Positions 4,295-30,058 of a stretch of DNA of 30,058 nt are shown piece by piece (positions within the stretch are counted from its first letter, which is position 1; each line of letters begins with the position of its first letter). The DNA is taken from the IMG/VR virus record IMGVR_UViG_3300005265_000121, positions 1-30,058 of that record, one strand, 5' to 3'. Position numbers and translations under genes: made by a program. A model generated the notes under the pieces. It worked only from the letters and a program-made list of their open reading frames with translations, had not been told where the DNA came from and did no database searches. Source of the stretch: a virus.

Positions 4295-4752
4295 TAAATA
4301 CAACTCAGCGCAAGATTATCGATGAAGCTAGAAGATGGATCGGAGTTCCATTCCATCACCAGGGACGCTCAATGGCTGGCTGCGACTGCGCTGGCGTTGT
4401 TGTGGCTTGCGCCAAAAAACTCGACATGAAATTCGTCGATTTAAAAGGCTATGGCAGGCTGCCGAACAGCCATAAACTCGAACATCTTTTCAAATCCCAA
4501 ATGATTCAAATTGCGCTTAACAAAATCCAGCCTGCTGACGCGGTATTAATTGCCTGGCGCAATGACCCGCACCATGTCGGCATCATATCAAATTTACCTG
4601 ATGGACGGCTTGGTATCATCCACAGCTACCAGAAGGTCGGGCGCGTGGTTGAGCACGGGCTTGACCAGAAATGGCGCGATCGTATCGTACTGGCGTTTCG
4701 TTTTCCTCAAACAATTCCGATTGAACATTTCAAAACCAAGGACATCGCGTAA
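4291..4752 (+). CDS. NlpC/P60 tail-tip peptidase
   Basis: This is an NlpC/P60 cysteine peptidase that probably cuts peptidoglycan stem peptides during DNA entry. Numbered from the TTG at 4291, the motif GCDCAGVVV places the catalytic Cys at residue 33, PHHVGII gives the His at 94/95, and a third polar residue is likely His111. An ATG start at 4180 is possible, but it would add 37 residues that overlap the DUF2163 gene by 115 bases and do not look like this family. Known members begin just before the EARRWIG segment. I therefore chose TTG at 4291, which makes a TTGA junction with the upstream stop. No clear Shine-Dalgarno precedes it, so translational coupling is likely. The stop shares a base with the next ATG (TAATG). 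Confidence 0.88.
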   Translation: MINTTQRKIIDEARRWIGVPFHHQGRSMAGCDCAGVVVACAKKLDMKFVDLKGYGRLPNSHKLEHLFKSQMIQIALNKIQPADAVLIAWRNDPHHVGIISNLPDGRLGIIHSYQKVGRVVEHGLDQKWRDRIVLAFRFPQTIPIEHFKTKDIA

Positions 4753-9980: not shown

Positions 9981-12800
9981 GTGATGTCGGCCAGAAACGC
10001 GATAGAGCCACTGCAAAAAATGTTTTTGTTCGATATTGCCGAGGTCGACAAAGTTTTAAAGTTTGTGAAAAGAGATTCGATCAGCGCAGTAACCATCCCG
10101 GCAACACAATTAATGGCAAAAACATTCGGCAATGATGAAAAATTAGATATTGTTGAATCAACATTTATAAATGAAGTTGAGTTTCCGGTAGAAATTACAG
10201 TTAAATTCTTACACTTCGGAAGAAATTATACCCAAAGCGCACAGAATTATAAAATATATTTTTCTGATACAAAAAATAAGATAGATGTCAACTTGCCAAT
10301 CGTAATGGACGCCACCACCGCATTGCAAACGGCTCAAAAATTGTTGTTATCAAGAAGAAGCGCAAACGTAAGGTATGTACTTTCAAGCTATGCAAAAAAT
10401 ATTTTCCTGGCACCTGCCGATCCAATTATCGTTGATTCTAAACGAAGCCGCATTACCCAAATGAGCATCTCCGGCGGTCTGTTGAAAATACAATCTGAAT
10501 CAGAGCAAGACGCGTCTTCGTACACATCATCGCTAACCACATCTTCCGGGGACTTTGAACTTGAACTGCCATCCACCGTAAGCCCCACCAGCCTCGTTTT
10601 TCTTGACACGCCGGTTTTTTATGAGATCGACTCAAATGCAGGATTCTATGTCGCCGCATATGGGCTTGCGTCGGCCTGGCCGGGGTGTGTGGTTTATTAT
10701 TCATCAGATGGCGGCGGGACCTGGAACCAAATCCAAACGATTACATCCGATGCGTCTGCCGGTGTTACGACGACAAAATTGCAGGCAGGCGGAACCGCTG
10801 TAATCGACGGAGAAAACACGCTTACCGTCAGAATGTATTCAGGTACGCTTTCAAGCATCACCCAGGCGGCGATGTTAAATGGTTCAAATGGCGCGGCTGT
10901 CGGGGCTCATGGACGCTGGGAAATAATTCAGTTTCAAAATGCGACATTAAATGCAGACGGGACATATACGATCGACACGCTTTTACGTGGCAGAAAAGGC
11001 ACCGCCTGGGCAATCGAAACGCATCAAACCGGAGATCTGTTTGTTCTGCTTGACAGCAATATTGCAAGAATTCCGCTTGGAAGTTCAGAAATAAACCAGG
11101 AGGAAACTTATCGAGCGGTTTCATTCGGGCAATCAATCCACGATGTATCCGACATAAGTTTTACCAATACGGCAATTGGATTGAAATGCTATTCTCCTTG
11201 CCACCTAAATGGACTGCGCAACTCATCAAATGATATAAACATCACGTGGACCAGGCGCGATCGTGTCTATGGAGAATCCGAATGGGCGGATTTTTCTGTT
11301 GCTACAAAAAATGCAGAAGACTCCGAATTGTATGACATTGAATTTTTTGATCAGGATACCATCGTAAGGACTGTTTCTGATTTAACAGATCCGCAATACA
11401 CGTATACCGCAGCCATGCAAATTGCCGACTTCGGAGCAGTCGTGGAATACGTCGTAATTAAGGTCTATCAGAAATCTACTGTCGTCGGTCGTGGATATCC
11501 TGCCACAGCCACGGTAGGCGCAACGAATACGAAGCGCACAATTACTCCCGGAGACTCAAAGCTGCTGCTCACCTCTGATAGTGTGTCGACAACAACCCGG
11601 CAATCAGTAAGTCCGAATGATTCAAAAATAAGTTTGGTGGCATATAACTGCGAGCTTGGAAAATTAAGCCTACAAAATTCCAAGATAACATTGACTTCAG
11701 ACAGTGTGGCATCCTGGCTTACCGATTGGCAGTACAGGAAAAAATTTACAATCGACAGTTCAAAAATAGATTCAAGCTTGTCTGATTTTCCAGTAGCACT
11801 GCTGCTAAGTACATCGGCTGGTACAAATGATGAAGATCTCACGGCAATCTTTACAGAAATTGCTGACTCTGACAGAAAGAAAATCGCGGTTACGACTTCC
11901 GATGGGACCACGCAATGTTATGTCGAAATCGAAAAATGGGATTCAACGAATAAAAAAGCTGCGTTGCATGTAAAGGTCCCGACGATATCATCCAGTGCGA
12001 ACACAGAACTCTATCTATATTATGACTCAGGACATGCTGATAACACGACATATGTCGGCAATACTGGAGATAGCGTCGTCCAGAATGTATGGGACAATAA
12101 CTTTAAAGCCGTTTATCATATGGCTCAAGATCCGAGTAACGGTTCTGGAGCAATCAAAGATTCTACATCTAATGGCAATAATGGAACATCAGCTGGCACT
12201 ATGACATCAACAGATCTTGTTGATGGTCAATCTGGAAAGGCAATTGAATTTGATGGTATAGACGATTACATAAATTGCGGTAGTGATTCTAGTATTGATA
12301 ATATCACAACATTTTCAATAGAAGCTGTTTTCAATATGAATGGATGGGGTGAAAGTTCCTGGGGTAGAATAATACAAAAAGCAAATGTAAATAATGACGG
12401 ATTTAGTATCTTTGTTGACGGAGACTCAGGACAAGAATTATTATCCATTCTTGCACCATGGACAACAGCAAATGGTAAATGGTCTACACCTGCCAGTAGT
12501 TTTTCATTGTCTACTTGGTATCATGTCGCAATTTGTTATAATAGCTCATCTACGGCAAATGATGCAATTATTTATAAAAATGGCACATCCCTTTCTATCA
12601 CAGAAAATAGTACTCCAGCTGGTTCATTTGCAAATGACTCGGCAAATGATATGTGGATCGGTGCTCGTAATAATTCTGGATCAGATCGTGAATTTGATGG
12701 TAAAATATGTGAAATTCGTATTTCAGCTATCATCCGATCTTCATCATGGATAAAAGCAACATATTATACATTATTCGACAATTTAGGAGAGTGGGGATAA
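9981..12800 (+). CDS. Tail-tip protein copy 2, C-terminal part with DUF2341 and LamG domains
   Basis: This is the rest of the second tail-tip protein. It opens at a GTG inside the conserved Phage-tail_3 region (MSARNAIEPLQKMFLFDIAEVDK), and no ribosome binding site precedes the GTG. The homologous frame reads back without a stop to at least 9921, so this start is probably an artefact of a frameshift near 9937. Residues about 1-510 follow copy 1, including LLRGRKGTAW. A linker with repeated TSDSV segments follows. Then comes a DUF2341 domain from about 577 (WQYRKKFTIDSSKI), and from about 715 a LamG/concanavalin-like domain (GKAIEFDGIDDYINCG, WYHVAICYN). The C-terminus thus differs completely from the discoidin-like end of copy 1, which points to a different surface ligand (inference). 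Confidence 0.82.
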   Translation: MMSARNAIEPLQKMFLFDIAEVDKVLKFVKRDSISAVTIPATQLMAKTFGNDEKLDIVESTFINEVEFPVEITVKFLHFGRNYTQSAQNYKIYFSDTKNKIDVNLPIVMDATTALQTAQKLLLSRRSANVRYVLSSYAKNIFLAPADPIIVDSKRSRITQMSISGGLLKIQSESEQDASSYTSSLTTSSGDFELELPSTVSPTSLVFLDTPVFYEIDSNAGFYVAAYGLASAWPGCVVYYSSDGGGTWNQIQTITSDASAGVTTTKLQAGGTAVIDGENTLTVRMYSGTLSSITQAAMLNGSNGAAVGAHGRWEIIQFQNATLNADGTYTIDTLLRGRKGTAWAIETHQTGDLFVLLDSNIARIPLGSSEINQEETYRAVSFGQSIHDVSDISFTNTAIGLKCYSPCHLNGLRNSSNDINITWTRRDRVYGESEWADFSVATKNAEDSELYDIEFFDQDTIVRTVSDLTDPQYTYTAAMQIADFGAVVEYVVIKVYQKSTVVGRGYPATATVGATNTKRTITPGDSKLLLTSDSVSTTTRQSVSPNDSKISLVAYNCELGKLSLQNSKITLTSDSVASWLTDWQYRKKFTIDSSKIDSSLSDFPVALLLSTSAGTNDEDLTAIFTEIADSDRKKIAVTTSDGTTQCYVEIEKWDSTNKKAALHVKVPTISSSANTELYLYYDSGHADNTTYVGNTGDSVVQNVWDNNFKAVYHMAQDPSNGSGAIKDSTSNGNNGTSAGTMTSTDLVDGQSGKAIEFDGIDDYINCGSDSSIDNITTFSIEAVFNMNGWGESSWGRIIQKANVNNDGFSIFVDGDSGQELLSILAPWTTANGKWSTPASSFSLSTWYHVAICYNSSSTANDAIIYKNGTSLSITENSTPAGSFANDSANDMWIGARNNSGSDREFDGKICEIRISAIIRSSSWIKATYYTLFDNLGEWG

Positions 12801-16302: not shown

Positions 16303-16469
16303 TGAAAAAATTATATCTCGTTATCGTTCTCGGAGACGTTGAGCCAATTCTGGCCGGGCCGTTTGAAACCGAACAAATGCGTGATGATCATGCTGCGTTT
16401 CATGGAACCGGAAGGAGAGTAAAAAAATGGCGAAATTGCATGAACTTTTGGCAGTCGAAGCGGATTTGA
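16302..16469 (+). CDS. Small hypothetical protein, 55 aa
   Basis: A 55-residue frame starting at the ATG that shares a base with the upstream TAA. It begins MKKLYLVIVLGDVEPILAGP, and a FETEQMRDDHAAFH segment follows. This looks like the short strand-helix proteins ('GPF...' then 'RD..A') common in phage accessory regions. It overlaps the start of the following gene by 43 bases. That gene's ribosome binding site lies inside this frame. Coding status rests on the coupled start and the residue pattern. Confidence 0.55.
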   Translation: MKKLYLVIVLGDVEPILAGPFETEQMRDDHAAFHGTGRRVKKWRNCMNFWQSKRI

Positions 16470-17170
16470 AGTCAACTTACAACGCAATCTTACTGGAAAC
16501 CGCAAAGGTTTTCAAACACAAGGGCGAGCTGTTTACCGGATTTGTCAGAACCTTGAAATGGTTCGATGACAATGCGCCTGAAGCCCCTGAAGAACGCAAG
16601 GCGCTTTCCACGACAGTCCCACGTCGGTTGGATTACCAGAACGAACACGTCGTGCGTTATCTGGATGCGGTATTTCAGAAAGAGCTGGCCAATCAACAGG
16701 CAAAAGCCGACATCATCGTGGATGGTAAAACCCTTGCCGAAAATGTACCGGCCACATATCTGCTGGGACTTGAAACCAAGCTCAAACAACTCAAAAGCGT
16801 TTACCTGGAAATCCCGACACTGCCGCCGGGCATTTCATGGAAAATTGACGACACCCAAGGCAAGGATGTCTTCATCACACAGTTTCCGGAGGAAACCTAC
16901 AAAACCGAAAAGAAGTTCAAGGTTCAAGTGCTTTATGAAGCAACCAAAGAACACCCGGCCCAGGTCGAAAAAATCCCGGAAACGGAAAACGTCGGCAAAT
17001 ACACCCGTTACACCTGGAGCGGGGCAATCACAGCTGCCGAAAAATCCAAGCTCATCGGCAGGATCGACAAGCTGCTGCGGGCCGTGAAAAAAGCCAGGCA
17101 GCGTGCCAACAATGTGGACGTCAAAAAAGACGTCATCGGCAAAAAACTCATTGACTACATCAATGGGTAA
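16427..17170 (+). CDS. Uncharacterised conserved protein, DUF7873-like
   Basis: A 247-residue soluble protein that I recognise from memory as a widespread uncharacterised family (name DUF7873), seen in phages and in actinobacterial and other genomes. Hallmarks are the opening MAKLHELLAVEADLKSTYN, the block AKADIIVDGKTLAENVPATY near residue 95, LPTLPP-like text near 125, KEHPAQVEK near 180 and a final YING. No catalytic motif is visible, and no function is established that I know of. The start is fixed by AAGGAGAG, 8 bases before ATG. The gene is visibly richer in G and C than its neighbours, which suggests a different origin. The stop abuts the permuted tRNA locus. Confidence 0.8.
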   Translation: MAKLHELLAVEADLKSTYNAILLETAKVFKHKGELFTGFVRTLKWFDDNAPEAPEERKALSTTVPRRLDYQNEHVVRYLDAVFQKELANQQAKADIIVDGKTLAENVPATYLLGLETKLKQLKSVYLEIPTLPPGISWKIDDTQGKDVFITQFPEETYKTEKKFKVQVLYEATKEHPAQVEKIPETENVGKYTRYTWSGAITAAEKSKLIGRIDKLLRAVKKARQRANNVDVKKDVIGKKLIDYING

Positions 17171-19816: not shown

Positions 19817-20122
19817 ATGAAAAAATCGTACCACAAGAAAAACAGAAAATCAATGACCAATTACATAATTGTAATTGGGGCATTGATCACATACTCCGTA
19901 ATGATTACCTGGGGCTATGTCCAATTAAGCCGTAAGGTTAACGTCAAGCCAATCAATTATTCCATCCAAATTGTTGATGAAATCAAAAATCTGCAGCAAG
20001 ATATCATCCAGTTGAAAAAAGAACAAATCGAATATGAACAGCGCATAAACATTATTTACCAAGCAATTCTCACTGACGCGCTTGTATCCATAATGAAGGA
20101 TCGACCAAATGAAACACAGTGA
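19817..20122 (+). CDS. Small membrane protein with coiled-coil tail
   Basis: 101 residues from ATG 19817. The frame is open further back, but that part is the structured stretch. A second ATG at 19853 is possible. A basic N-terminus precedes one membrane span (about residues 15-37, YIIVIGALITYSVMITWGYV). A predicted coiled coil follows (IKNLQQDIIQLKKEQIEYEQ). The topology recalls spanin-like or scaffold-like phage membrane proteins, without a family match. It overlaps the next gene by 14 bases. Confidence 0.65.
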   Translation: MKKSYHKKNRKSMTNYIIVIGALITYSVMITWGYVQLSRKVNVKPINYSIQIVDEIKNLQQDIIQLKKEQIEYEQRINIIYQAILTDALVSIMKDRPNETQ

Positions 20123-20408
20123 GTTTATTGAAGAAATAAAAGATTTTATCAATGTCTACTGTTTCGATTACTTCCATAGCATCGATTATGTGCTCAATGA
20201 AATAGAAGATGAACATCAATTAAAGGCAACTGTACGCTTATATGATAATTATGGTCATAATTGGGAAATCCCTGTTGGCCTTACAAGCGATGGCAATTTT
20301 TGTATCATTGCAAACGAAGAATTGAATTATTTTCTCGAACCAACAGATGCCGGACTCTATTGTTTCCTGTGGCACAAAGCTATGGAAAGGATTACTGATG
20401 GAAATTAA
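20109..20408 (+). CDS. Small acidic hypothetical protein
   Basis: 99 residues, acidic, with GAAGGA upstream of the ATG inside the previous gene. It contains RLYDNYGHNWEIPVGLTSDG and a C-terminal helix. No family is recognised. Last gene before the consensus promoter at 20440. Confidence 0.68.
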   Translation: MKHSEFIEEIKDFINVYCFDYFHSIDYVLNEIEDEHQLKATVRLYDNYGHNWEIPVGLTSDGNFCIIANEELNYFLEPTDAGLYCFLWHKAMERITDGN

Positions 20409-20439
20409 GGAAGCTTCAAATTTAAGTGTAAAATTTTTC

Positions 20440-20468
20440 TTGACACCCTCCCCGAGCCCTGGTATAAT
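20440..20468 (+). promoter_or_regulatory. Perfect-consensus sigma-70 promoter driving a leaderless transcript
   Basis: TTGACA (20440-20445), a 17-base spacer, then TATAAT (20463-20468): every position matches the consensus. Initiation is expected 6-9 bases past the -10 box, that is 20474-20477. A20477 is the first base of the in-frame ATG of the HTH gene, so the mRNA may have no leader. This is by far the strongest promoter in the window and opens the replication region. Confidence 0.93.
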
Positions 20469-20476
20469 CCATGTTT

Positions 20477-20794
20477 ATGGAAACCAAACTTAAAAAGGTC
20501 GTTAAAAAAAGAGGACTTACGCTTACCCAACTGGCCCGTGAATTTTGCATCACGCGGGTTCATCTTACCAATATCGCCAACGGCGAGCCTGCCGGTAAAA
20601 AGTTAATCCAAAAAAAAATTAAGGGGCATATATGGGCTACCCGCCGACAAAGATCAAGCCATGGAAACATCAAATCGAAGCATGGGAACTTGCAAGCAAA
20701 CAAAGATCATTCTACCTCGCACATCAAATGGGGTGTGGAAAAACAAAATCAGCCATCGATTATTGCAATGGCGTCTATGCCAATCGTATTTTAA
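20477..20794 (+). CDS. Small XRE-type HTH protein, probably shortened by a frame change at A9
   Basis: The first 47 residues form a Cro/CI-like helix-turn-helix (LTLTQLAREFCITRVHLTN), a DNA-binding regulator type often placed first in early operons. The start at 20477 is chosen because it coincides with the expected transcription start. An ATG at 20471 lies only two bases after the -10 box. After residue 47 the frame runs through nine A's (20610-20618) and then 163 bases into the helicase gene, where its translation looks like noise. One more A in that run would stop it at 20620-20622, directly at the helicase ribosome site, giving a sensible 48-residue protein. That suggests transcriptional slippage or a read error. 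Confidence 0.6.
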   Translation: METKLKKVVKKRGLTLTQLAREFCITRVHLTNIANGEPAGKKLIQKKIKGHIWATRRQRSSHGNIKSKHGNLQANKDHSTSHIKWGVEKQNQPSIIAMASMPIVF

Positions 20795-22065
20795 TAATTT
20801 GCCCCAAAAAAGTGATGTCGGTATGGCCAAATCAATTTAAAATCCACAGCCATAAAGACTATGATGTCATTGCACTGAACAATAACAAGCCGGTATCAAA
20901 AAAGGTCACTCAGCTTAAAGACTTCATCCGCCAAAAAGAAACGTCCGGGCAGCCGTTCGCGGTTGTATTGAATTATGAGTCTTTCTGGCGTCCACCGATG
21001 GGTCCGGTCTATAAAAAAAATCGAAGAATCGAGGCCGGTCTTTTATTGACGCTACCTTGGGACTTGATCATCGCTGATGAGGCTCACAGGTGCAAATCAC
21101 CTGGTGGCGCAGCGTCCTGGGGGTTGACCAGGCTGTGTCGGCAAATTGACCGTCGCCTGTTTTTGTCAGGCACGCCAATGCCACACAGCCCGGTCGACAT
21201 TTATGCTCAATTCAGGGCACTTGATCCGTCTGTGTTTGGAACAAGCTTTGCTATTTTCAGACAGCGCTATTGCGTAATGGGCGGATTTGAAAACAGGCAA
21301 ATCGTAAAATTCATCAACATCGATGATTTGAACAAGCGTTTTTATTCAAAGGCCCATTATGTAAAATCGGAAGATGCCCTTGATTTGCCTAAAAAGCAGG
21401 ACATTACGATCAGCTGCAATCTCGATAACAAGGCCATGAAAATTTATCGTGAACTCGACAAGGAATTTATCGCCGAAGTCGACAAAAACGAAATCACGGC
21501 CGACAACGCCCTTGTAAAATTATTGCGGCTTGCTCAAATAGCCGGTGGTTATTTAAAGCTTGACGACGGAACAACGAAGGTAATCGATGACAACAAAATC
21601 GACACCGTGATTGAAATTTTAAGGGACCTGCCGGAAACAGAACCGGTTGTAATATTCTGCAGATTCAGAAACGAACTGAGACGACTCACCGATAAGATAG
21701 AAAAGGAATTTTCGCAACGCAAAGTTGGTGAAATTTCAGGTCGCATGAGCGGCCCTTACGACTTCTATGATGGTATCTGGCATGCCACCGATACCAACAC
21801 ATTGCTTGTCCAGATATCGTCGGGTGGAGAAGGCATAGACCTCACATCGGCCAGATATTGCATCTACATGTCAATCGGCTATTCGCTTGGCCAATATCAG
21901 CAAAGCAAATCAAGGCTACATCGTCCGGGGCAAACAAGAAAAGTCATCTATTACCACATCGTCGCCAACGGCACGGTCGACACCAAGATAATTTCCGCCA
22001 TCAAATCAAAACGCAGGATTGTGGATTCGGTTTTGCATCAGTACAAATCAAATATGATTTTATAG
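20632..22065 (+). CDS. SNF2-type DEAD/DEAH-box helicase
   Basis: 477 residues, a complete superfamily 2 helicase of the SNF2 type common in phage replication regions. It has a Q-like KHQ at 12-14, Walker A MGCGKTK (33-39), DEAH (149-152), LFLSGTPM (motif III, about 180-187), GGEGIDLTSA (motif V, about 400) and motif VI QYQQSKSRLHRPGQ (421-434) followed by the usual V-Y-YH strand. All ATPase motifs are intact. It would use ATP to move on or remodel duplex DNA. There is no extra DNA-binding or nuclease domain. The ribosome site AAGGGG (20621-20626) precedes the ATG by 5 bases. The strong promoter lies 160 bases upstream. Confidence 0.93.
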   Translation: MGYPPTKIKPWKHQIEAWELASKQRSFYLAHQMGCGKTKSAIDYCNGVYANRILIICPKKVMSVWPNQFKIHSHKDYDVIALNNNKPVSKKVTQLKDFIRQKETSGQPFAVVLNYESFWRPPMGPVYKKNRRIEAGLLLTLPWDLIIADEAHRCKSPGGAASWGLTRLCRQIDRRLFLSGTPMPHSPVDIYAQFRALDPSVFGTSFAIFRQRYCVMGGFENRQIVKFINIDDLNKRFYSKAHYVKSEDALDLPKKQDITISCNLDNKAMKIYRELDKEFIAEVDKNEITADNALVKLLRLAQIAGGYLKLDDGTTKVIDDNKIDTVIEILRDLPETEPVVIFCRFRNELRRLTDKIEKEFSQRKVGEISGRMSGPYDFYDGIWHATDTNTLLVQISSGGEGIDLTSARYCIYMSIGYSLGQYQQSKSRLHRPGQTRKVIYYHIVANGTVDTKIISAIKSKRRIVDSVLHQYKSNMIL

Positions 22066-22102
22066 TTTTTCTCAAAATTTTAATTCAACAAAATCGGAGG
22101 CG

Positions 22103-22513
22103 ATGATGGGCAACAATTTAAATACCGAACTGATGCAAAAATTTGCCAGATTATCATTGGCGAAAAAAAAGATGAAAGAAAAACTATCAGAGATCGAAAA
22201 GCAGCTGGAAACAATGCAACCAATCATTATCAACAACATGACTGACGCCATGATTGAAAAATTCAGTCTCAAAGGCGGCGTTACGATTTTTACCAAAACT
22301 CAAATCTGGCCGAAAATAAAAACAGACCGTGATAAAGTTGCGGCAGCGCTAAAAGAAGCTGGACTCGGTGAACTCGTGGCTGAAAATTTCAACAGCAACA
22401 GGCTTGCAAGCTATCTGCGAGAACTTTATCGTGACGAAAAACAACTTCCGCCGGCCCTTGCGGAGCACCTTGAAATGAATGCCGTTATCAAGGTGCAGGT
22501 AAGAAAATATTAA
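22103..22513 (+). CDS. Hypothetical replication-region protein
   Basis: 136 residues with an excellent GGAGG site. The N-terminal 55 residues are a Lys/Glu coiled coil (LAKKKMKEKLSEIEKQLETM), then a small domain with IFTKTQIWPKIKTDRDKVAA, LKEAGLGELVAENFNSNRLA and a final short strand VIKVQVRK. This layout, a coil followed by 'LGELV.E.FN.N.L..Y.RE', occurs in other phage replication modules as far as I recall. I know of no function for it. An ATG three bases later is an equally good start. The position between helicase and Cys4 protein suggests a replication or recombination accessory role. Confidence 0.72.
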   Translation: MMGNNLNTELMQKFARLSLAKKKMKEKLSEIEKQLETMQPIIINNMTDAMIEKFSLKGGVTIFTKTQIWPKIKTDRDKVAAALKEAGLGELVAENFNSNRLASYLRELYRDEKQLPPALAEHLEMNAVIKVQVRKY

Positions 22514-22569
22514 TCTTTTGTCCTCACTGGAAGGAAGGTGCATCGGATTTTGCGAAATGTCGTAGACGC

Positions 22570-22610
22570 AAGGACAAGGACCAAAAAACAAAGACCAAAG
22601 ACCAAGGACC
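22570..22610 (+). repeat. Tandem heptamer repeat AARGACC, six units
   Basis: The 41 bases divide exactly into AAGGAC, AAGGACC, AAAAAAC, AAAGACC, AAAGACC, AAGGACC. It occupies much of the 124-base gap between two genes, ending 27 bases before the next ATG. The 7-base period is not codon-based. It may be a slippage-prone spacer or a binding-site array. Confidence 0.8.
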
Positions 22611-22637
22611 ATAAATCAGCTACAAGGATAAATAAAA

Positions 22638-23405
22638 ATGAGCAAAAGTAAAGAATTGGCAAAAACAGATAGTGCGCAGTTCGCGATCATGAAGCCCGAA
22701 AACCGGGATATCATCAAAACCATGCGTCAAAATCTCGGAACGGAAAAAATTTCCGCCGGGGATTTGACCATGATCACGGTTCCGACCGGCGGCAGCACAA
22801 TGTGGAGTGTCGACACAATCGAAGGTGAAATCCAGACCAAAGAACTGGTCGGCATCATCCCGTGCACGCAAGTTGTCCGTGCGTACTGGAAAGAGTCGTT
22901 CGATGATACCGGTGGTGGAACGCCTCCGGATTGTTTTTCAAACGACTCGACAATCGGCATCGGGGATCCCGGCGGCGATTGCTACCAGTGCCCGTTGAAT
23001 GAATTCGGCACCAAGCCCAAAGGCCGCGGCAAAGCATGCCAGGAATATCGGCTGGTGTTCATGACATTCCAAGATGAAATCCTGCCATATGTCATCAAGG
23101 TCCCGGCCACGTCGCTCAAGGCAGCCACGAAATACCTGTACGGCCTGCTGAGCAGAAATCTTCCGACGTATTCCGTATACACCAAGCTGACCCTGGAAAA
23201 AGACAAGAATGCGGATGGAATCCAGTATTCAAAGATCGTCTTTTCCAAAGTCGGAACCGTCGAGGATGTGGAAGCCGCTGCCAAGTATGCCGAGGGTATC
23301 CGCCCTTATCTTACGCAGGCGGCATCCGAACTGGCTCAGGGGTCCATTTCGAGCGATGAACACGATGCTTCTGGCCTCGGGTCTGCAGAGGATGCCGCTG
23401 CATGA
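22638..23405 (+). CDS. Cys4 (zinc-ribbon-like) replication-region protein, possible ssDNA-binding protein
   Basis: 255 residues. A central block carries Cys99, Cys115, Cys118 and Cys134, a C-X15-C-X2-C-X15-C arrangement that suggests one zinc ion. Around it lie DSTIGIGDPGGD and KGRGKACQEYRLVF. After it comes VPATSLKAATKYLYGL and a beta-strand pair, then an acidic low-complexity tail (SSDEHDASGLGSAEDAAA). An acidic tail after an OB-like beta domain is typical of phage ssDNA-binding proteins, so that role is plausible but inferred. The gene is clearly GC-richer than its neighbours, like the DUF7873-like gene at 16427, hinting at a shared origin. There is no strong Shine-Dalgarno (AAGGATAAA). 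Confidence 0.7.
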   Translation: MSKSKELAKTDSAQFAIMKPENRDIIKTMRQNLGTEKISAGDLTMITVPTGGSTMWSVDTIEGEIQTKELVGIIPCTQVVRAYWKESFDDTGGGTPPDCFSNDSTIGIGDPGGDCYQCPLNEFGTKPKGRGKACQEYRLVFMTFQDEILPYVIKVPATSLKAATKYLYGLLSRNLPTYSVYTKLTLEKDKNADGIQYSKIVFSKVGTVEDVEAAAKYAEGIRPYLTQAASELAQGSISSDEHDASGLGSAEDAAA

Positions 23406-23462
23406 TTATTCAATGATGCGGCGCAAGCATGCTCTTGCGAACACAAACCTTAAATAAAAAAT

Positions 23463-23540
23463 GGGGGGCGCGCATCCAATAAACGCGCACAGCCAAGGGA
23501 CCGGGGGGCGCGTATCCGGTAAAACAACACGCGCATTTTT
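23463..23540 (+). repeat. Two related GGGGGGCGCG hairpin units
   Basis: The unit at 23463-23489 and the unit at 23503-23535 both begin GGGGGGCGCG(C/T)ATCC and end with CGCGCA, so each can fold GCGCG with CGCGC. Unit 2 extends to 6 pairs and is followed by five T's (23536-23540), so it may act as a terminator. They fill the non-coding gap after the Cys4 gene. Confidence 0.65.
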
Positions 23541-23544
23541 CATT

Positions 23545-23721
23545 ATGATTAAATTAAAATGTCGCCATTGCTGGAAACTTGTAAAGCCCAAAATAGCAAC
23601 CAACGGACCTCACGTGGAAGCGCGGTGTCCGATATGTGACAACTGGATTAAGTTTTTGAATCGCAAGGAACGTAAAATCGTTATGCGGTTAATGATCAGG
23701 AAAATTAAAACCGGAAGATGA
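23545..23721 (+). CDS. Small zinc-ribbon protein
   Basis: 58 residues from ATG 23545. An upstream in-frame ATG at 23461 lies before the hairpin repeats and would add an unlikely 28 residues. Cys6, Cys9, Cys28 and Cys31 form a C-X2-C-X18-C-X2-C zinc ribbon, with a basic C-terminal helix (RKERKIVMRLMIRKIKTGR). Such Com-like or regulatory zinc ribbons are common in phages and often bind nucleic acid. Its stop overlaps the next start. Confidence 0.78.
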   Translation: MIKLKCRHCWKLVKPKIATNGPHVEARCPICDNWIKFLNRKERKIVMRLMIRKIKTGR

Positions 23722-23927
23722 TAAAAGGTATTTATATAGCAACAAATAATTTTGAAATCATTTCTGACAACGGGTTGGTAAAATTCGAAAAATTTAGAAC
23801 ATACAAAATTATGTTTCCGTATAAACATTATCAAACAAGCCGAGTAACAGATATTGATGACAATTATATGTGTTGGATAAACATAGATGAGATAGAGCAG
23901 AATTTCAAATTGTTTTTAAAATTATGA
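23718..23927 (+). CDS. Small protein, 'YIA' paralogous family member A
   Basis: 69 residues. First of six related small proteins in this region. Shared landmarks are GIYIATNNFEII at the N-terminus, TYKI in the middle, DIDDNYMCWI, and a C-terminal amphipathic FKLFLKL. The alternating pattern suggests a small beta barrel closed by a helix (inference). It is closest to member B, directly downstream, with which it overlaps by 4 bases. I do not recognise the family. Confidence 0.72.
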   Translation: MIKGIYIATNNFEIISDNGLVKFEKFRTYKIMFPYKHYQTSRVTDIDDNYMCWINIDEIEQNFKLFLKL

Positions 23928-24175
23928 TAACAGAAGGAATATATATAGCAAAAAAAACAGTAAAAGCAGGAACCGCATTTTTATACGCAGAATATTATTT
24001 TAAAAAAAATTATACAGAAAAAGAAGTAAAGATAATTAAATTAAAGCCATATAAAATTATCAAACACCCTGATGATCCCAACACCACTATGGTAATAGAT
24101 GTCAATGATAATTTTGTATGCCTTATAACGCCGTATCGGTTAAAACAATTTTTTAGATTATTCGCAAAATTATGA
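23924..24175 (+). CDS. Small protein, 'YIA' family member B
   Basis: 83 residues, with GIYIAKKTVKAG, PYKIIKH, VIDVNDNFVCLI and FRLFAKL in the same order as member A and about the same spacing. An extra Lys-rich YYFKKNYTEKEVKI loop sits between the first two blocks. It overlaps both neighbours by 4 bases (ATGA), so translation is coupled. Probably a tandem duplicate of A. Confidence 0.72.
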   Translation: MITEGIYIAKKTVKAGTAFLYAEYYFKKNYTEKEVKIIKLKPYKIIKHPDDPNTTMVIDVNDNFVCLITPYRLKQFFRLFAKL

Positions 24176-24465
24176 TCAGGCATAATTACAAAAAACTCGA
24201 CGAGTCAATTAATTTTAATTTCAGGGAAGACAGACTCAAGGATGCATGGCACCTTGGTTTTAAATATATCAGCGAAGCTCTTATAAAGACATATCGCAAA
24301 ACAAAAAGTGCAAAAAAAACAGCCAAAATTTTAAAAATATCGGATGGCTGTGTATTTTATGAGCTAATAAAATTCGGGGAACCAAGGAATGGACGTGGCG
24401 GATATAGACCAGGGGATATACGATACGGAGACACTAAGCAATATTGGGATGACAAACTGAGGTGA
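24172..24465 (+). CDS. Helix-turn-helix protein
   Basis: 97 residues. After an N-terminal helical part, residues about 41-75 read KTYRKTKSAKKTAKILKISD and then a recognition-helix-like GCVFYELIKFGEP. This is the pattern of resolvase/HTH_23-type domains in phage regulatory and terminase-small-subunit-like proteins. A Gly/Arg-rich wing follows (NGRGGYRPGD). The role may be in replication initiation or transcription. Position just before the primase favours the former, but this is inference. Confidence 0.72.
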   Translation: MIRHNYKKLDESINFNFREDRLKDAWHLGFKYISEALIKTYRKTKSAKKTAKILKISDGCVFYELIKFGEPRNGRGGYRPGDIRYGDTKQYWDDKLR

Positions 24466-24468
24466 GCC

Positions 24469-26256
24469 ATGGACGAACAAAAGTTCCTCGACGCGTTGTT
24501 TGGCAACAAACCGGATGGCACATATATAAACATCTGGACGCTGCCTCAAAAACGAAGCAACTTTTTCAGTTCATTAAAAAATGCGAAGCAGTACATTCAA
24601 AAAACAAAATCCCTGGAAATGGATCTTTATATATCGTGCGGAATTTTTGACAAAAGCCTTGGCAAATTTCAGCGCGGTGAAAAAAAGGACATTATCGGCC
24701 TGCCAGCATTATATATGGATATAGATGTCGCCGATAAAGACGCCCATGAAAAGCAGTATCTCCCGCCAACGATCGATGCCGCTGTCAGCCTTGTCCATGG
24801 ACACGGAATCGATCCTTCAATTATCGTCAACACCGGCCATGGAATTCATACTTGGTGGGTATTTAAAGAACCATTGATCACAGATGACCCCAACCAAATC
24901 TATGAGCTTGAACTCGTCAATGCAAGGTTGCAGGCCACAATCCAACAGCGGGCCGAAAAGCAGGGCTGGAAATTGGACTCGACATATGATGTTACGAGGG
25001 TCATGCGTATTCCTGGCACATATAATCGTAAAATTGCCGACAAACCAAAGCAGGTTAAAATAATATATCAAACCGATGTACGCTATGCTGACACGGAAGA
25101 TTTTGAAGGATTTATTTTATCAGAATCGGAATACTACAAGGGCTCATCGGTAACAGTCGCTGAAAAAGAAGTCATCACGGAAAATCTGGTATTAAATTCA
25201 AACGCCCAGGTTGATCAAGAAAAATTCGACGCACTCGCGGCTGTTGAGCCAAGATTTTTCAGATCGTGGTCCGCAAACCGGCCCGATCTTCGTAAACACA
25301 GCGCATCAGAGCTTGCCTTGAGCATCTCGTCGTTTGCGGCGGCGGCTGGATGGACAGACCAGGAAATCGCAAATTTAATCATCGCTTTTTATCGCAAACA
25401 TTTATCAAATAAAAAACTTGTAAGAAATGGAAAAGGGCCGACAATGAAAAAAGCATTGCGGCCTGATTTTATTGCAGCCACGATTGCGAAGGCAAGGTCA
25501 AACAGATCAAAAGAATTTATAAAAGATTATGAAGAAAACGTCCTGCCATCAATAGGAACAAAATATAATAAACAAATAGATCCAGATGGAAAAAAAATCC
25601 GTGAATTCATTCGTTCAAAAATTGGCCTCGATATTGTTACGATCATAAAGTACAAGCAAGAAGAAGGCGCAAGCTATGAAATGAAGGTAATTCATGACAA
25701 TGACATTAAAAAAATAAATTTCCCCGATACAAAGTCATATGCTACTTTTTCAAAATTCAGAGAATGTGTTTACAATGAAATAAGCAAGTGGATAATATTG
25801 CGGCCAATGAAAAACAAGGGGGTAAAGGCGCAATGGGATGAAATTTTCATGCATTTTCGATTCTTGGAAGTCGTTCGTGAAATCGGGGATTACACGGTTG
25901 TTCATCGAATGCGATCATGGATAGCCGACTATCTTGAAGGCAAGGCGCACCTTACACCGGGTGAGTCGTTAAGGATGTCAGAGCCATTCATAAAAGACGG
26001 ACACTGGCATATATACGCTCAACCATTCAGGCAATGGGCATACTCACGACGGGGCCAAGTAGAGGGAGTATCCAAAACTGAGCTTGATCTTACAAAAATT
26101 AAATGCAAAAGAGTGCGGTACAACATTCCCTACCCCGACAACCCGTCAAAAAGAAAACCAATCAGACCATGGCGAATTCCAAAAAAAGTAATAAAACCGT
26201 CAAAAACAGACCCAACACAATACGAAGAAAGAAAAGTTATCCCACTCCAAAAATAA
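24469..26256 (+). CDS. Archaeo-eukaryotic-type primase (RepB/PrimPol-like)
   Basis: 595 residues. The primase core has the metal-binding pair in LYMDIDV (Asp84, Asp86), the nucleotide-binding His motif TGHGIHTWW (His124, His127) and the third motif DVTRVMRIPGTYNRK (about 174-187), in the order of the AEP superfamily. A helical PriCT-like segment follows at about 275-340 (SASELALSISSFAAAAGWTD, then QEIANLI). The C-terminal 240 residues contain a possible winged-helix part but no Walker A, so this is a primase without a fused helicase. The unlinked SNF2 protein at 20632 could be its partner. The ribosome site GAGGTGA and an ATG three bases after the upstream stop fix the start. It should make primers for phage DNA replication. 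Confidence 0.88.
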   Translation: MDEQKFLDALFGNKPDGTYINIWTLPQKRSNFFSSLKNAKQYIQKTKSLEMDLYISCGIFDKSLGKFQRGEKKDIIGLPALYMDIDVADKDAHEKQYLPPTIDAAVSLVHGHGIDPSIIVNTGHGIHTWWVFKEPLITDDPNQIYELELVNARLQATIQQRAEKQGWKLDSTYDVTRVMRIPGTYNRKIADKPKQVKIIYQTDVRYADTEDFEGFILSESEYYKGSSVTVAEKEVITENLVLNSNAQVDQEKFDALAAVEPRFFRSWSANRPDLRKHSASELALSISSFAAAAGWTDQEIANLIIAFYRKHLSNKKLVRNGKGPTMKKALRPDFIAATIAKARSNRSKEFIKDYEENVLPSIGTKYNKQIDPDGKKIREFIRSKIGLDIVTIIKYKQEEGASYEMKVIHDNDIKKINFPDTKSYATFSKFRECVYNEISKWIILRPMKNKGVKAQWDEIFMHFRFLEVVREIGDYTVVHRMRSWIADYLEGKAHLTPGESLRMSEPFIKDGHWHIYAQPFRQWAYSRRGQVEGVSKTELDLTKIKCKRVRYNIPYPDNPSKRKPIRPWRIPKKVIKPSKTDPTQYEERKVIPLQK

Positions 26257-26558
26257 AAGAGTTTCCAAAAAAGAGTGGTGTATATATCGCAACTAAAAAT
26301 TTTTATTTACTATTTCGTTATAAAGATGGGATGGCAAAGAAAAAACTTTTCATCAAAAAAGGCAATATGTATCGATTAAGATATGTGCACAATCATGCCG
26401 TAATGTCCATGGACGCATATGAACGATTAAGAGCAGAATGGTGCGTTTACAACGAAAATAATACTTATCGCTGGTTTCAAAATGAAGTGGTGCAACAAAT
26501 TTTCAGGCCGTTTGCATATTCAGAAATGACTCATAATGAAATAATAGGTAAAAAATGA
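26169..26558 (+). CDS. 'YIA' family member C with basic N-terminal extension
   Basis: 129 residues from ATG 26169. An ATG at 26103 is also in frame. The first 35 residues are Lys/Arg-rich and overlap the primase end by 88 bases. Then the family layout begins with SGVYIATKNFYLLF, MYRLRYV and a C-terminal QQIFRPFAYSEM. The basic extension may be real or may just be translated overlap, since no later start codon is in frame before the family domain. Its stop overlaps the next start (ATGA). Confidence 0.62.
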   Translation: MANSKKSNKTVKNRPNTIRRKKSYPTPKIKEFPKKSGVYIATKNFYLLFRYKDGMAKKKLFIKKGNMYRLRYVHNHAVMSMDAYERLRAEWCVYNENNTYRWFQNEVVQQIFRPFAYSEMTHNEIIGKK

Positions 26559-26782
26559 AGTCAGGATTTTACATCGCAAGAAAAAATTACGTTATTGGCG
26601 ACAATATTATACCAGCCATAAAGCGTGGTGAAACATACTATATAGAAATATTAAGAAGCCCCTTGTTATCAATATATGCAAAAGTTTTTAACGGTGAAAA
26701 TTTTATTGTAATAAAAAAAGAACTTATTAGCCAATTATTCATATATTTTTGTGAACTCAATAATAAAAAATGCTTGGCATAA
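26555..26782 (+). CDS. Small protein, 'YIA' family member D
   Basis: 75 residues with SGFYIARKNYVIG, RGETYYIEIL, NGENFIVIKK and LFIYFCEL, matching the four landmarks of the family. It contains two Cys near the C-terminus. It overlaps the upstream stop by 4 bases and the next gene by 13. Confidence 0.7.
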   Translation: MKSGFYIARKNYVIGDNIIPAIKRGETYYIEILRSPLLSIYAKVFNGENFIVIKKELISQLFIYFCELNNKKCLA

Positions 26783-27033
26783 AAACAAAATGCTCGGTTT
26801 GTGTGGCAAAAAAATCTTATAAACCGACAGTTGTTGAACAAAGTAAAAGCCCTTTTCTAAAAACACGGGAAATTATTTTAGGCGAACCTTACATCATAGA
26901 ATTCAGTCTAATGAACAAATCACGTGATCCATGGACATGGTGTCGAGTACTTGATTGCAACTACCATTTTGTCACATTTATAAGGCTCCATAGAATAGAA
27001 AAAACTTTTTCATTTTTTTGTAATTTGAAATAA
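26770..27033 (+). CDS. Small protein, 'YIA' family member E
   Basis: 87 residues. The N-terminal landmark is changed to CSVCVAKKSYKPT, and GEPYIIEFS, VLDCNYHFVTFI and FSFFCNLK follow. This is the most divergent member at the N-terminus, where a C-X2-C appears. The start lies inside member D. Confidence 0.68.
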   Translation: MLGIKTKCSVCVAKKSYKPTVVEQSKSPFLKTREIILGEPYIIEFSLMNKSRDPWTWCRVLDCNYHFVTFIRLHRIEKTFSFFCNLK

Positions 27034-27044
27034 TTTTAACAAAA

Positions 27045-27281
27045 ATGAGAAACAAGCCTGGCATATCATGGGGATACGATGACCACATCAACCTTATGCG
27101 CTCATCCATTGGCTGGCTGGCTGTTTATTATGACGACGTGGATTCCGCAGGTGAAATCATCCGTGTTTTCAATCCGAAAAATTATGCGCAATATTTGCAC
27201 ATGATGGAAAAACTGGCGTTTTACAATTACAACACATGTGCATTGTGCCAAATCGTAAAGGCTGAAATGGATTATGGCTAA
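27045..27281 (+). CDS. Small hypothetical protein
   Basis: 78 residues, no family recognised. It has aromatic-rich ISWGYDDHIN and GWLAVYYDDVDSAGEII, then a helix with AQYLHMMEKL and a CALC near the end. It begins 11 bases after member E with no clear Shine-Dalgarno and overlaps the next gene by 8 bases. Confidence 0.62.
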   Translation: MRNKPGISWGYDDHINLMRSSIGWLAVYYDDVDSAGEIIRVFNPKNYAQYLHMMEKLAFYNYNTCALCQIVKAEMDYG

Positions 27282-27786
27282 AATAAGAATGTTTTTTACA
27301 CTCGTGCTGATTTATCTGTCGATTGCAGGCCTTGTCACCTTCAGCCTGTTCATCCATGAAGAAGCCATCCAAACGACAATGTTCGGCACCTGGCCGGCAA
27401 AAGATGCCAAACGCTGGGATGTGGTGCTTGATGGCATCGATTTGATAAAAAAGATAAATTTCAGCATGAAGGTAATCAATTATTCTGTCGGCTGGATTCA
27501 GCCATTGGCGTTTTTGTCTTATCGCGCTTATGGTAAAGCAGCCGATTATTATGTAAACGCTTTATCAACTGAAACTTTCGCCAACGCACCTGATCTTTTT
27601 ATTGATCGAATGGTGGATGTCAGTTTCAAACCCAAAAAGATAATCCATCTTGAAAATGGAAAATATCTCGCAGTGAATAACAACCTTGGATTTTTTACAA
27701 ACAGCAGGTCTGGTTTGCAGCGCAGAAGAATCATCGGCAGACTTGTTAAAGACGGCAAATATTTTATAATTCAAGAAAAACAGTAA
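27274..27786 (+). CDS. Membrane-anchored hypothetical protein
   Basis: 170 residues with an N-terminal hydrophobic segment (about residues 6-28, MFFTLVLIYLSIAGLVTFSL) that would act as signal anchor, placing the rest outside the cytoplasm. No lipobox is seen. The C-terminal third has strand-rich segments (KKIIHLENGKYLAVNNN). No family is recognised. Unlike its neighbours it is fairly long and slightly richer in G and C. Confidence 0.65.
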   Translation: MAKIRMFFTLVLIYLSIAGLVTFSLFIHEEAIQTTMFGTWPAKDAKRWDVVLDGIDLIKKINFSMKVINYSVGWIQPLAFLSYRAYGKAADYYVNALSTETFANAPDLFIDRMVDVSFKPKKIIHLENGKYLAVNNNLGFFTNSRSGLQRRRIIGRLVKDGKYFIIQEKQ

Positions 27787-27792
27787 TTACCA

Positions 27793-27951
27793 ATGGCAGA
27801 TAAACGAATTGTATTTTACGCAGACGAATCACTTCATCGTAAAATTAAAGTCATAGCAGCAAAATATGGTATAACAATGAAAGAAGTTTTAACGCAAGCG
27901 CTTGATCTCTGGCTTGCTGAAAAACAAAAACAGAACAATGATAAAATATAA
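27793..27951 (+). CDS. Ribbon-helix-helix (CopG/Arc-type) DNA-binding protein
   Basis: 52 residues: a short strand (KRIVFYADES), then two helices (LHRKIKVIAAKYG and TMKEVLTQALDLWLAEKQ), the full ribbon-helix-helix fold, with the usual Gly turn between helices. Proteins of this size bind operator DNA as dimers and often repress phage or plasmid genes. The stop overlaps the next start by 14 bases. No toxin gene is obvious next to it, so a lone repressor is favoured over an antitoxin. Confidence 0.78.
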   Translation: MADKRIVFYADESLHRKIKVIAAKYGITMKEVLTQALDLWLAEKQKQNNDKI

Positions 27952-28195
27952 TATCTATCTTGCCAGAAAAGATTTTTACAGTAACGGGCACAGAATACTA
28001 ATTAAAGGCAAGGCATATCGCGTATCAAAATCGAATGGCAAGTATGTAGTTGCAGGTGAACCAATTTTTGCAGAAAATGCTACTGTAAGGTTTTACGTGA
28101 TGTATGAAGCACAATTTCATGCAAATTTAAGATTCTTCACAAGGTATAAAAACAATGAAAAAAGTAATAATAAAAATCAAAGTAAAAGATTGTGA
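27938..28195 (+). CDS. Small protein, 'YIA' family member F
   Basis: 85 residues from ATG 27938, inside the end of the RHH gene. YNIYLARKDFYSN, KGKAYRVSKS and LRFFTRYKNN match family landmarks. The third landmark is poorly kept. The Lys/Asn-rich last 15 residues overlap the next gene by 41 bases. Confidence 0.66.
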   Translation: MIKYNIYLARKDFYSNGHRILIKGKAYRVSKSNGKYVVAGEPIFAENATVRFYVMYEAQFHANLRFFTRYKNNEKSNNKNQSKRL

Positions 28196-28358
28196 TTTAA
28201 CACTAAATGAAAAACTTGAACCTGGCGTTGTTTGCCAAACAACTTTTAGGTGTGAAAGCAATATAAGCAATATCGCACTTTTAAAACGTATAATTGCGGC
28301 TGAAAACGAGTTAACAGATGAATTTATAGAATCGCATGTAAAGGTAATCGATGAATAA
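28155..28358 (+). CDS. Small hypothetical protein
   Basis: 67 residues with a strand-rich N-terminus (KKVIIKIKVKDCDLTL), two Cys, and an acidic C-terminal helix. The start overlaps member F by 41 bases and the stop overlaps the next gene by 8. No family recognised. Confidence 0.58.
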   Translation: MKKVIIKIKVKDCDLTLNEKLEPGVVCQTTFRCESNISNIALLKRIIAAENELTDEFIESHVKVIDE

Positions 28359-28662
28359 AACATTTTCAATCATATCGGCAGTCATTATCATTGTCAGCGT
28401 AACCGGTGCGGCATTTTTCCTGGAAGACAGATATGCCAAGCAAATTGATGTCGCCCAGGTCAGCACTCGACTGAATTCCTATATCCTGCAAGACCAGATA
28501 AATTTTTTACAAAACCAAATCTGGCAAATGCAGGACAGATGCGGCAATGACATACGCAAGATGACTCCGGATCAACGCGCCCGTTATCGTGAAATGCTTA
28601 AACAAAAAGAAATGTTTGAAAAGCAATTAAACCAAATCATGTTAAAAAAGGACTCAAAATGA
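28351..28662 (+). CDS. Small signal-anchored coiled-coil protein
   Basis: 103 residues with one N-terminal membrane span (about 6-24, SIISAVIIIVSVTGAAFFL), then a Gln/Lys/Glu-rich coil (YILQDQINFLQNQIWQMQDR). The layout resembles phage i-spanin-like or other periplasm-facing proteins, and a lipoprotein gene follows with a 4-base overlap. A spanin pair is therefore conceivable, although the lysis cassette lies elsewhere in the window. Confidence 0.65.
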   Translation: MNKTFSIISAVIIIVSVTGAAFFLEDRYAKQIDVAQVSTRLNSYILQDQINFLQNQIWQMQDRCGNDIRKMTPDQRARYREMLKQKEMFEKQLNQIMLKKDSK

Positions 28663-28949
28663 AAGTTGCAATAATTTTTTTCGGTCTTCTTACAACTTTT
28701 TTATTTATTGCGTCTATTATCAATGGATGCGCTACCGGACTTGGAGCTGGAGACACAAAATTGCGTGAATACAGCGTGCCAATCAACATGTCTGCCGATT
28801 CGATAGATCTGCAGCAAATTTCAGACACTCAAACATGTAGAGATCGAATTCCAGATTACTGTTTTCAGTGTGTTTTTATATTCGTCAATGCGGACATTGC
28901 AAAGGACATTACTCCACAGATGACAGTCCCGATATCAGCGGTTCCATAA
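28659..28949 (+). CDS. Small lipoprotein
   Basis: 96 residues. A signal peptide ends in IINGC with Cys24 as likely lipidation site, followed by a Gly-rich ATGLGAGDTKL. Three more Cys (about residues 61, 69 and 72) could form disulfides. It overlaps the coiled-coil membrane protein by 4 bases. The pair could be an i-spanin/o-spanin set (inference) or a surface exclusion lipoprotein. Confidence 0.66.
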   Translation: MKVAIIFFGLLTTFLFIASIINGCATGLGAGDTKLREYSVPINMSADSIDLQQISDTQTCRDRIPDYCFQCVFIFVNADIAKDITPQMTVPISAVP

Positions 28950-28967
28950 ATAGCAGGATAATAGACA

Positions 28968-29183
28968 ATGTTAATCAAAATTACAGATATCGCAAGTTAC
29001 GATGCATATTGTTCAATATCAGAGGACATTGTTGATAAAATAATATTCAAATTAATTAGTGTTAAACCATCACCAATTACTGGATATAAAAGTGTTTCAG
29101 CAAAAAAGATAGGCTTTTTTTGCAATAAAACAACTTTAGATTACTGCTATTTTACTGCCGTGAAATATAAAATAATATCATAA
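28968..29183 (+). CDS. Small hypothetical protein, possible paralogue of 29659 gene
   Basis: 71 residues. The opening IKITDIASYDAY, then FKLISVKPSP, parallels VRIKEISPND, then FKIDQYSG in the protein at 29659, suggesting a small shared beta domain. No known family. The stop shares bases with the next ATG. Confidence 0.58.
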   Translation: MLIKITDIASYDAYCSISEDIVDKIIFKLISVKPSPITGYKSVSAKKIGFFCNKTTLDYCYFTAVKYKIIS

Positions 29184-29500
29184 TGAGTCAGTATAAAAGA
29201 AAACATCCTGAAAGAAAAAATGGCAAACGGTTCTTGCCAAGGAATCTGTGGAAAAATAATCCTAAAAAATATAAGCGCAAAACAAAACGCAAACGGACAA
29301 TACAAGTTGAGTATAAACTTGTCGACCCAAACAATCACAGCAAGTATATTGCAGAAATGTTTGGTAACGGAAATTGGATTAAATATAAAAAATACCATTC
29401 GATAAAATCTGCTCAACAAGCCGTTGATGATTTAAATAGAGGCGCAGGAATTCTTACGAATATATGCAATTTCAAATATCGCATCAAAAAAGAAAGTTAA
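29183..29500 (+). CDS. Small very basic hypothetical protein
   Basis: 105 residues. The first 45 are extremely Lys/Arg-rich (YKRKTKRKRT), which points to nucleic-acid binding. The remainder has a YHSIKSAQQAVDDLNRG segment that looks like a strand-helix unit. It starts at TAATG after the upstream stop. No family recognised. Confidence 0.6.
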   Translation: MSQYKRKHPERKNGKRFLPRNLWKNNPKKYKRKTKRKRTIQVEYKLVDPNNHSKYIAEMFGNGNWIKYKKYHSIKSAQQAVDDLNRGAGILTNICNFKYRIKKES

Positions 29501-29503
29501 AAA

Positions 29504-29662
29504 ATGCAATATCCGACATTCGAATCAAAACTCGGCCAATATGCAGCGCAAAAATATCTTGCCAATAAAAACGGACTTAATCGCCAAAAATTAAATATGC
29601 AACTCATATTCTGGTCATTTATAACCGGACTTATTATCGGAACATTTTTTATCAAAATATGA
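29504..29662 (+). CDS. Small membrane protein, 52 aa
   Basis: 52 residues with a polar N-terminal half and one C-terminal membrane span (LIFWSFITGLIIGTFFI, about residues 34-50), so it is tail-anchored. It begins 3 bases after the previous stop and ends with an ATGA overlap into the next gene, which supports real coding. Confidence 0.6.
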   Translation: MQYPTFESKLGQYAAQKYLANKNGLNRQKLNMQLIFWSFITGLIIGTFFIKI

Positions 29663-29922
29663 CAATAATTGTAAGAATAAAAGAAATAAGTCCAAACGAT
29701 CCAATGTCCAAATATAAAAACCAACTTGTAGGATCGTTATTTAAAATAGACCAATACTCAGGATGCTTCCATGAACGAATTTTAAGGCAGAGAATACACC
29801 AAGGCCATAGGCTTACGCTTGTTTTATTTCCAATAAAATTATTCTCGCCAAAAATAGAGACAGCCTGGAAATTTCCAGTCAGATATCTTTTTACAAATAT
29901 TGTTCTTGAACTTGTGGAATAA
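29659..29922 (+). CDS. Small hypothetical protein
   Basis: 87 residues, strand-rich, with VRIKEISPNDPMSKYKNQLVG, an FKID segment and LVLFPIKLFSP. The opening resembles the protein at 28968. It is coupled at both ends (ATGA and TAATG). No family recognised. Confidence 0.6.
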   Translation: MTIIVRIKEISPNDPMSKYKNQLVGSLFKIDQYSGCFHERILRQRIHQGHRLTLVLFPIKLFSPKIETAWKFPVRYLFTNIVLELVE

Positions 29923-30058
29923 TGGGAAAAGACAAAAAAATATGCAACTGTGCAACAAGGCTCGGGCATTCGGTCGTAAAAGATGTAAGGTTCAGGTGGG
30001 TAAAAAGTCAGGGTGTTTATGAAAAATATAGACGCAGGCGCTGTACCGTATGCGGTGG
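29922..30058 (+). CDS. Zinc-ribbon protein, NrdR-like pattern, cut by window end
   Basis: 45 residues are visible before the window ends. Cys8 and Cys10, then VVKDVRFRW, GVYEKYRRRR and Cys41/Cys44-Gly follow the order of the NrdR zinc ribbon (Cys pair, V-D-R, basic RRRR, Cys-X2-Cys). The first pair is C-X-C instead of C-X2-C. NrdR represses ribonucleotide reductase genes. A phage protein with only this ribbon could be a regulator. The remainder must be seen to tell. Confidence 0.6.
   Translation, partial: MGKDKKICNCATRLGHSVVKDVRFRWVKSQGVYEKYRRRRCTVCG

Follow-up and report, generated by a model that had tools for sequence, protein, structure and literature searches.

Introduction

Small proteins with an SH3/Tudor-like fold form the largest, the fourth largest and the fifth largest of the fold clusters that are specific to bacterial viruses (Viral AlphaFold Database, PMC12487901). 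Because such large clusters are reported there, the kind of fold dealt with in this study is already known. DUF7244 of Drexlerviridae is a stand-alone SH3 domain; in T1-like phages, its single gene is a neighbour of the lysis genes (PMC13164509). Nip from Bacillus phage phi3T is a protein of 279 amino acid residues, in which two SH3-like domains are combined with an HU-like dimerisation domain (PMC11984713). In jumbo phages, a small SH3-fold gene often adjoins the DNA polymerase gene, and a role as polymerase subunit has been proposed for its product (PMC7824862). T4 MotB, which binds DNA, possesses a KOW domain that is predicted to be SH3-like (PMC7827196).

In this study, we analyzed IMG/VR virus record IMGVR_UViG_3300005265_000121 (30,058 bases; this whole stretch is hereafter called the window), in which six small genes (p1 to p6) are located around a primase-type gene. 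Their products resemble the members of the above clusters in being small phage proteins with a predicted SH3/Tudor-like fold. However, they are grouped with these clusters by fold only, and five or six paralogues are present here in one 30 kb record. DUF7244 is likewise a single SH3 domain of similar length, and p6 matches a DUF7244 protein by fold; its gene adjoins lysis genes, in contrast to the genes in this study, which are in a replication region (PMC13164509). Nip, an early protein that works by binding a target protein, likewise possesses predicted SH3-like domains, but it is a longer protein with several domains (PMC11984713). The jumbo-phage gene likewise encodes a small SH3-fold protein near phage replication genes, but it is the upstream neighbour of a polymerase gene and has been likened to nucleic-acid-binding toxins (PMC7824862). 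MotB is an early phage protein as well, but possesses two domains, the KOW domain and an OB fold (PMC7827196). The unusual part of the locus is the paralogous set. Among the papers listed in our searches of the open-licence literature, no report of a multi-copy set of stand-alone SH3 proteins in one phage was noticed.

Six small genes around a primase-type gene

The features are as follows.

20440 to 20468, plus strand: sigma-70-like promoter match, a perfect TTGACA-17-TATAAT with TG before the second hexamer (extended -10); a consensus match only
23461 to 28949, plus strand: packed same-strand gene run with gaps of at most 11 bases, which contains all six members
23718 to 23927, plus strand: p1, 69 aa, pI 6.5; leave-one-out E 4e-7, 0/2000 shuffles
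23924 to 24175, plus strand: p2, 83 aa, pI 9.5, tandem to p1; leave-one-out E 3.2e-6, 0/2000 shuffles
24469 to 26256, plus strand: primase-type gene, 595 aa, phrog_2478 DNA polymerase/primase (E 7.3e-16); separates the two blocks of members
26169 to 26558, plus strand: p3, 129 aa, pI 10.2, domain start near 26271; leave-one-out E 2.3e-5, 0/2000 shuffles
26555 to 26782, plus strand: p4, 75 aa, pI 9.4; leave-one-out E 1.9e-7, 0/2000 shuffles; SH3-like barrel model for residues 1-70
26770 to 27033, plus strand: p5, 87 aa, pI 9.5; leave-one-out E 7e-4, 0/2000 shuffles
27938 to 28195, plus strand: p6, 85 aa, pI 10.2, probable member, marginal by sequence; SH3-like barrel model

The original prediction, which was made from the DNA letters, placed six open reading frames (ORFs) at 23718, 23924, 26169, 26555, 26770 and 27938, and all of them are present on the plus strand. 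Overlaps of 4-14 bases with each other had been ascribed to most of these genes. Five of the six overlap the preceding gene by 4 (23718), 4 (23924), 4 (26555), 13 (26770) and 14 bases (27938); the gene overlapped by 27938 is a non-member, the 27793 gene. The sixth, p3, starts inside the primase gene with an overlap of 88 bases (26169-26256). The basic N-terminal extension of p3 (approximately 34 residues) is coded mostly in this overlap and does not have a clear ribosome-binding site. A -1 frameshift from the primase into the p3 frame at the A7 run (26181-26187) was considered as well. This idea was dropped because the primase gene contains seven such heptamers and runs of A are frequent, so that the run is not distinctive. 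The small protein encoded directly before p6 (27793-27951) resembles, by eye, a ribbon-helix-helix regulator.

The motifs that had been attributed to the six proteins are approximate. The N-terminal motif, [GS]-x-Y-[IL]-A-x-[KN]-x-[FY], is exact in three proteins (23718, 26169 and 26555); 23924 possesses a final V, 26770 possesses C for Y and V for I, and 27938 possesses an initial N. The central G-x-x-Y-x-[IVL] is exact in four proteins, while 23718 and 23924 do not possess the G. The C-terminal F-x-x-F is present in five proteins and is replaced by LRFF in 27938.

Relationship among the six proteins

We performed leave-one-out tests, in which a profile from the other members was compared with the 358 ORFs of the record, and scored 2000 composition-preserving shuffles per protein. 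Each of p1 to p5 was ranked first among the window ORFs that were not in its profile (E 1.9e-7 to 7e-4), and none of the 2000 shuffles equalled the real score in any of these five cases. At the level of sequence profiles, the homology of p1 to p5 is confirmed. In pairwise comparison, the tandem pair p1 and p2 (39% identity over 49 residues) was the only clearly similar pair. Alternatively, the proteins may be unrelated and the shared residues may reflect the composition bias of short, aromatic, lysine-rich proteins. The aromatic content is indeed 14-17% in all six proteins, and shuffled sequences often match the score of p6 under some training sets. However, the composition was preserved in the shuffles that failed to reach the scores of p1 to p5, and we consider this explanation scarcely credible.

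The case of p6 is less clear. When all five other proteins were used, the E value of p6 was 0.33, which ranked below a spurious minus-strand ORF among the 358 window ORFs, and 58 of the 2000 shuffles scored equally high. Over 16 training subsets, E ranged from 0.0042 to 2.8; the best subset was p1, p2, p4 and p5, with 0/2000 shuffles, and many shuffles matched under some other subsets. In a blind iterative search at E 0.005, p6 joined p1, p2, p4 and p5 from three different seeds. It should be mentioned that p3 was not in the database for this search because the longest ORF of 26169 is above the 150-residue limit. Based on the blind search and the SH3-like model described below, p6 is a probable member. 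Thus, the proposal of six diverged copies of one domain stands for p1 to p5 and is probable for p6.

Predicted fold of p4 and p6

AlphaFold2 models were prepared for two of the six members, p4 (from alignment A2) and p6 (from alignment A5, the family alignment). For p4, the best of five models had a mean pLDDT of 71.4 and the remaining four were at 36.5-38.8. For p6, the five models were at 76.6-77.9, the best being 77.9; because this model was built on the family alignment, it depends on the assumption of homology. The p6 model contains strands at residues 5-9, 13-15, 18-21, 26-32, 35-39, 52-55 and 64-69 and a helix at 57-63. The p4 model contains strands at 3-8, 27-34, 40-46 and 49-54 and a helix at 55-61, and its last strand is unformed. 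The strands of both models follow the order of an SH3 barrel, in which a short helical turn precedes the final strand. In the family, the sequence A-x-[KN]-[NDST]-[FYV] of the first strand is similar to the ALYDY motif of eukaryotic-type SH3 domains, with the first Tyr replaced.

In a Foldseek search of the PDB with p4, the 50 matches listed were SH3 entries, with E values no better than 0.066. With a structural aligner, the best match was 3ehq_B for both p4 (Z 7.2, rmsd 3.9, 67 aligned residues) and p6 (Z 6.7, rmsd 2.5, 58 aligned residues); both Z scores are below 8, where, as the aligner cautions, similarity may reflect merely a common arrangement. SH3 domains account for nearly all PDB structural matches listed for the two proteins. 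Because these matches agree on SH3, p4 and p6 look like SH3-like beta-barrels, with moderate similarity. The SH3 barrel is a common shape that serves in the binding of other molecules. The original prediction regarded different folds among the members as an argument against a common domain; no such difference was observed between the two models. No SH3 chain was found in profile searches of PDB sequences, and no Pfam SH3 match was obtained for the six proteins. Among the BFVD matches listed, those from Pseudomonas phage Henu5, virus ctHG14, Bacillus phage Kirov and Brevibacillus phage SecTim467 are common to both models. All four are uncharacterised small proteins, and the viral fold matches overall are mostly uncharacterised.

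Search for relatives

There was no match of note for the six proteins in Pfam, NCBIfam or PADLOC, and no PHROGs match was better than E 0.013. PADLOC returned no family for any of the six members; its models cover defence and are silent on counter-defence. A tblastn search with p2 and p3 against 50,697 phage records found no relatives, and neither did pattern scans of viral_contigs with the primase and p3. In genome_contigs, the p4 pattern matched 88 stretches, none of which was confirmed. When G[IFV]YIAx[KN]N[FY] was searched as a degenerate DNA motif, 14 viral stretches matched; no relative was recognized by eye, and the best profile score among them, 14.1 bits (E 0.0044), belonged to a frame of 40 residues. 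A narrower motif matched 38 stretches in genome_contigs, among which the best candidate, a 43-residue frame in an archaeal contig (E 0.0041-0.0047), was judged to be a chance match. The family profile matched none of 50 viral records. Its best E value was 0.21 among 10,021 ORFs of 50 loci and 0.79 among 965 ORFs from the T1, SP-15, THSA-485A and FP_Epona stretches. Thus, sequence relatives of the family were not detected at the sensitivity used, where the single-protein searches were those with p2, p3 and p4 (p4 in genome_contigs only).

Frequency of short-paralogue sets in other loci

To give a base rate, we used 86 loci of at least 10 kb including the window, after L054 and L055 were dropped as duplicates. 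In a blind search at E 0.05, the window alone possessed a set of at least four, but this set had drifted into unrelated genes. At E 0.005, the 80 loci with ORF files gave 69 without a set, 10 with a pair and one, the window, with a set of five; the control loci are mostly shorter than the window (mostly 10-21 kb) and many are related to each other. Because none of the 79 other loci contains a set of at least three short paralogues, the five-member set is uncommon among these loci.

Gene neighbourhood and predicted expression

The replication genes nearby encode an SNF2 helicase (20632), the 22638 protein and the primase. Upstream of them is the promoter match at 20440-20468, which is the sole 12/12 match within 20000-30058. 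No plus-strand terminator-like site was found between 20960 and 29609 among the sites listed. Because the gene run is packed, this promoter match is present and no terminator-like site was listed in that stretch, the arrangement is consistent with early expression of the small proteins by the host polymerase, together with the SNF2 helicase, the 22638 protein and the primase.

This location suggests another possible role. The small proteins may belong to the phage replisome as accessory subunits or regulatory factors; made from the same operon, they would be SH3-fold partners that act with the primase, the SNF2 helicase or the 22638 protein. The members flank the primase gene, the start of p3 lies within it, and a polymerase subunit has been suggested for the small SH3-fold gene adjoining jumbo-phage polymerases (PMC7824862). 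The replication modules of THSA-485A and FP_Epona contain a homologue of the SNF2 helicase and a 22638-type protein, but no family member was found among the ORFs of the stretches compared. This absence suggests that the set is accessory and is not a core part of replication, although the primases in these modules are of another type. Furthermore, six diverged copies seemingly exceed the need for a subunit. We regard the replisome role as doubtful, though as a serious rival of the reading preferred below.

Possible function of the small proteins

The invariant alignment columns are hydrophobic or aromatic (A8 and F63 in alignment A1; Y28 and F65 in alignment A2). Because such columns would be expected in a barrel framework and nothing resembles an active site, a binding role is most likely for the proteins, as judged from their sequences. 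Our preferred reading, which we hold tentatively, is that they are duplicated and diverged SH3-fold binding modules. In this proposal, six stand-alone SH3-fold (small beta-barrel) proteins would have arisen by duplication within this phage lineage, followed by divergence. They would be expressed early with the replication genes, largely via coupled overlapping start and stop codons, and would remain in the cytoplasm. The conserved part would be the hydrophobic framework of the barrel, namely the first strand (YIA..K.F), the G..Y.I strand and the final F..F, whereas loops and surfaces differ, so that each copy would most likely act as a small module that binds a partner of its own. From the divergence alone, we infer that the partners are distinct. 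The commonest use may be the binding of a host or defence protein to block or redirect it. Early timing, cytoplasmic location, binding function and this host-directed role are all features that we infer.

Host-takeover or anti-defence effectors and subunits of a hetero-oligomer had been suggested before. All three are compatible with a predicted binding fold and a putatively early, packed gene run, and host takeover or counter-defence would be plausible. A more specific form of the idea is a kit of six diverged SH3-fold adaptors in the replication run, each of which acts against a different host or defence protein or which assemble in combinations. This form is rather unlikely; if it is true, the phage derives a full range of counter-measures from a single barrel scaffold.

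The charge of the proteins may point in a different direction. The pI is 9.4 to 10.2 in five of the six members, and five possess a lysine at one same position of the first-strand motif. These features would suit small basic proteins of the SH3/KOW type that bind the DNA or RNA of the host or the phage, as proposed for T4 MotB, or that serve as RNA chaperones. However, p1 (pI 6.5) contains equal numbers of acidic and basic residues, and a basic pI is frequent among small phage proteins. DNA binding by the predicted SH3-like KOW domain protein MotB of T4 (PMC7827196) agrees with such a role, which we nevertheless consider unlikely. Among these readings, we give most weight to binding modules with separate partners, followed by replisome partners and then by nucleic-acid binders, both of which are serious rivals.

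A role as cell-wall-binding lysis auxiliaries, like DUF7244, was also considered. Among the BFVD matches of p6, a DUF7244 model ranked 13th (E 0.17, probability 0.82), and a stand-alone SH3 protein is encoded next to the lysis genes in T1-like phages (PMC13164509). However, the genes in the window occupy the replication region, and no hydrophobic N-terminal export segment was visible by eye in any of the six proteins. Pfam DUF7244 did not match the six proteins at E values up to 1. In T1, DUF7244 was absent from all six genes tested. A lysis role is very improbable.

The five or six diverged copies in one gene run provide a natural experiment on the use of the SH3/Tudor-like fold. Comparison of the partners among the copies in one host would reveal how the fold is used, and any split of targets.

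Other features of the record

Tail genes (tape measure, DUF2460, Gp84 and tail proteins) are located at the start of the record and small genes at the far end. Because no head gene was found among the proteins scanned, the record may be incomplete, so that the phage may carry more than six copies. The tail genes resemble GTA-like tails (DUF2460, Gp84) and the helicase of the record is widespread; the region around the small-protein family was found in none of the records compared for kinship. A DUF7873 protein is encoded at 16427-17170 (Pfam E 1e-79). One viral contig (L053) encodes a relative of it with 55% identity; no member of the small-protein family was found in that contig. The two large tail proteins encoded at 4752-8498 and 9981-12800 share a region of 491 residues with 40.5% identity (E 1.3e-105), a putative duplicated tail or receptor-binding part.
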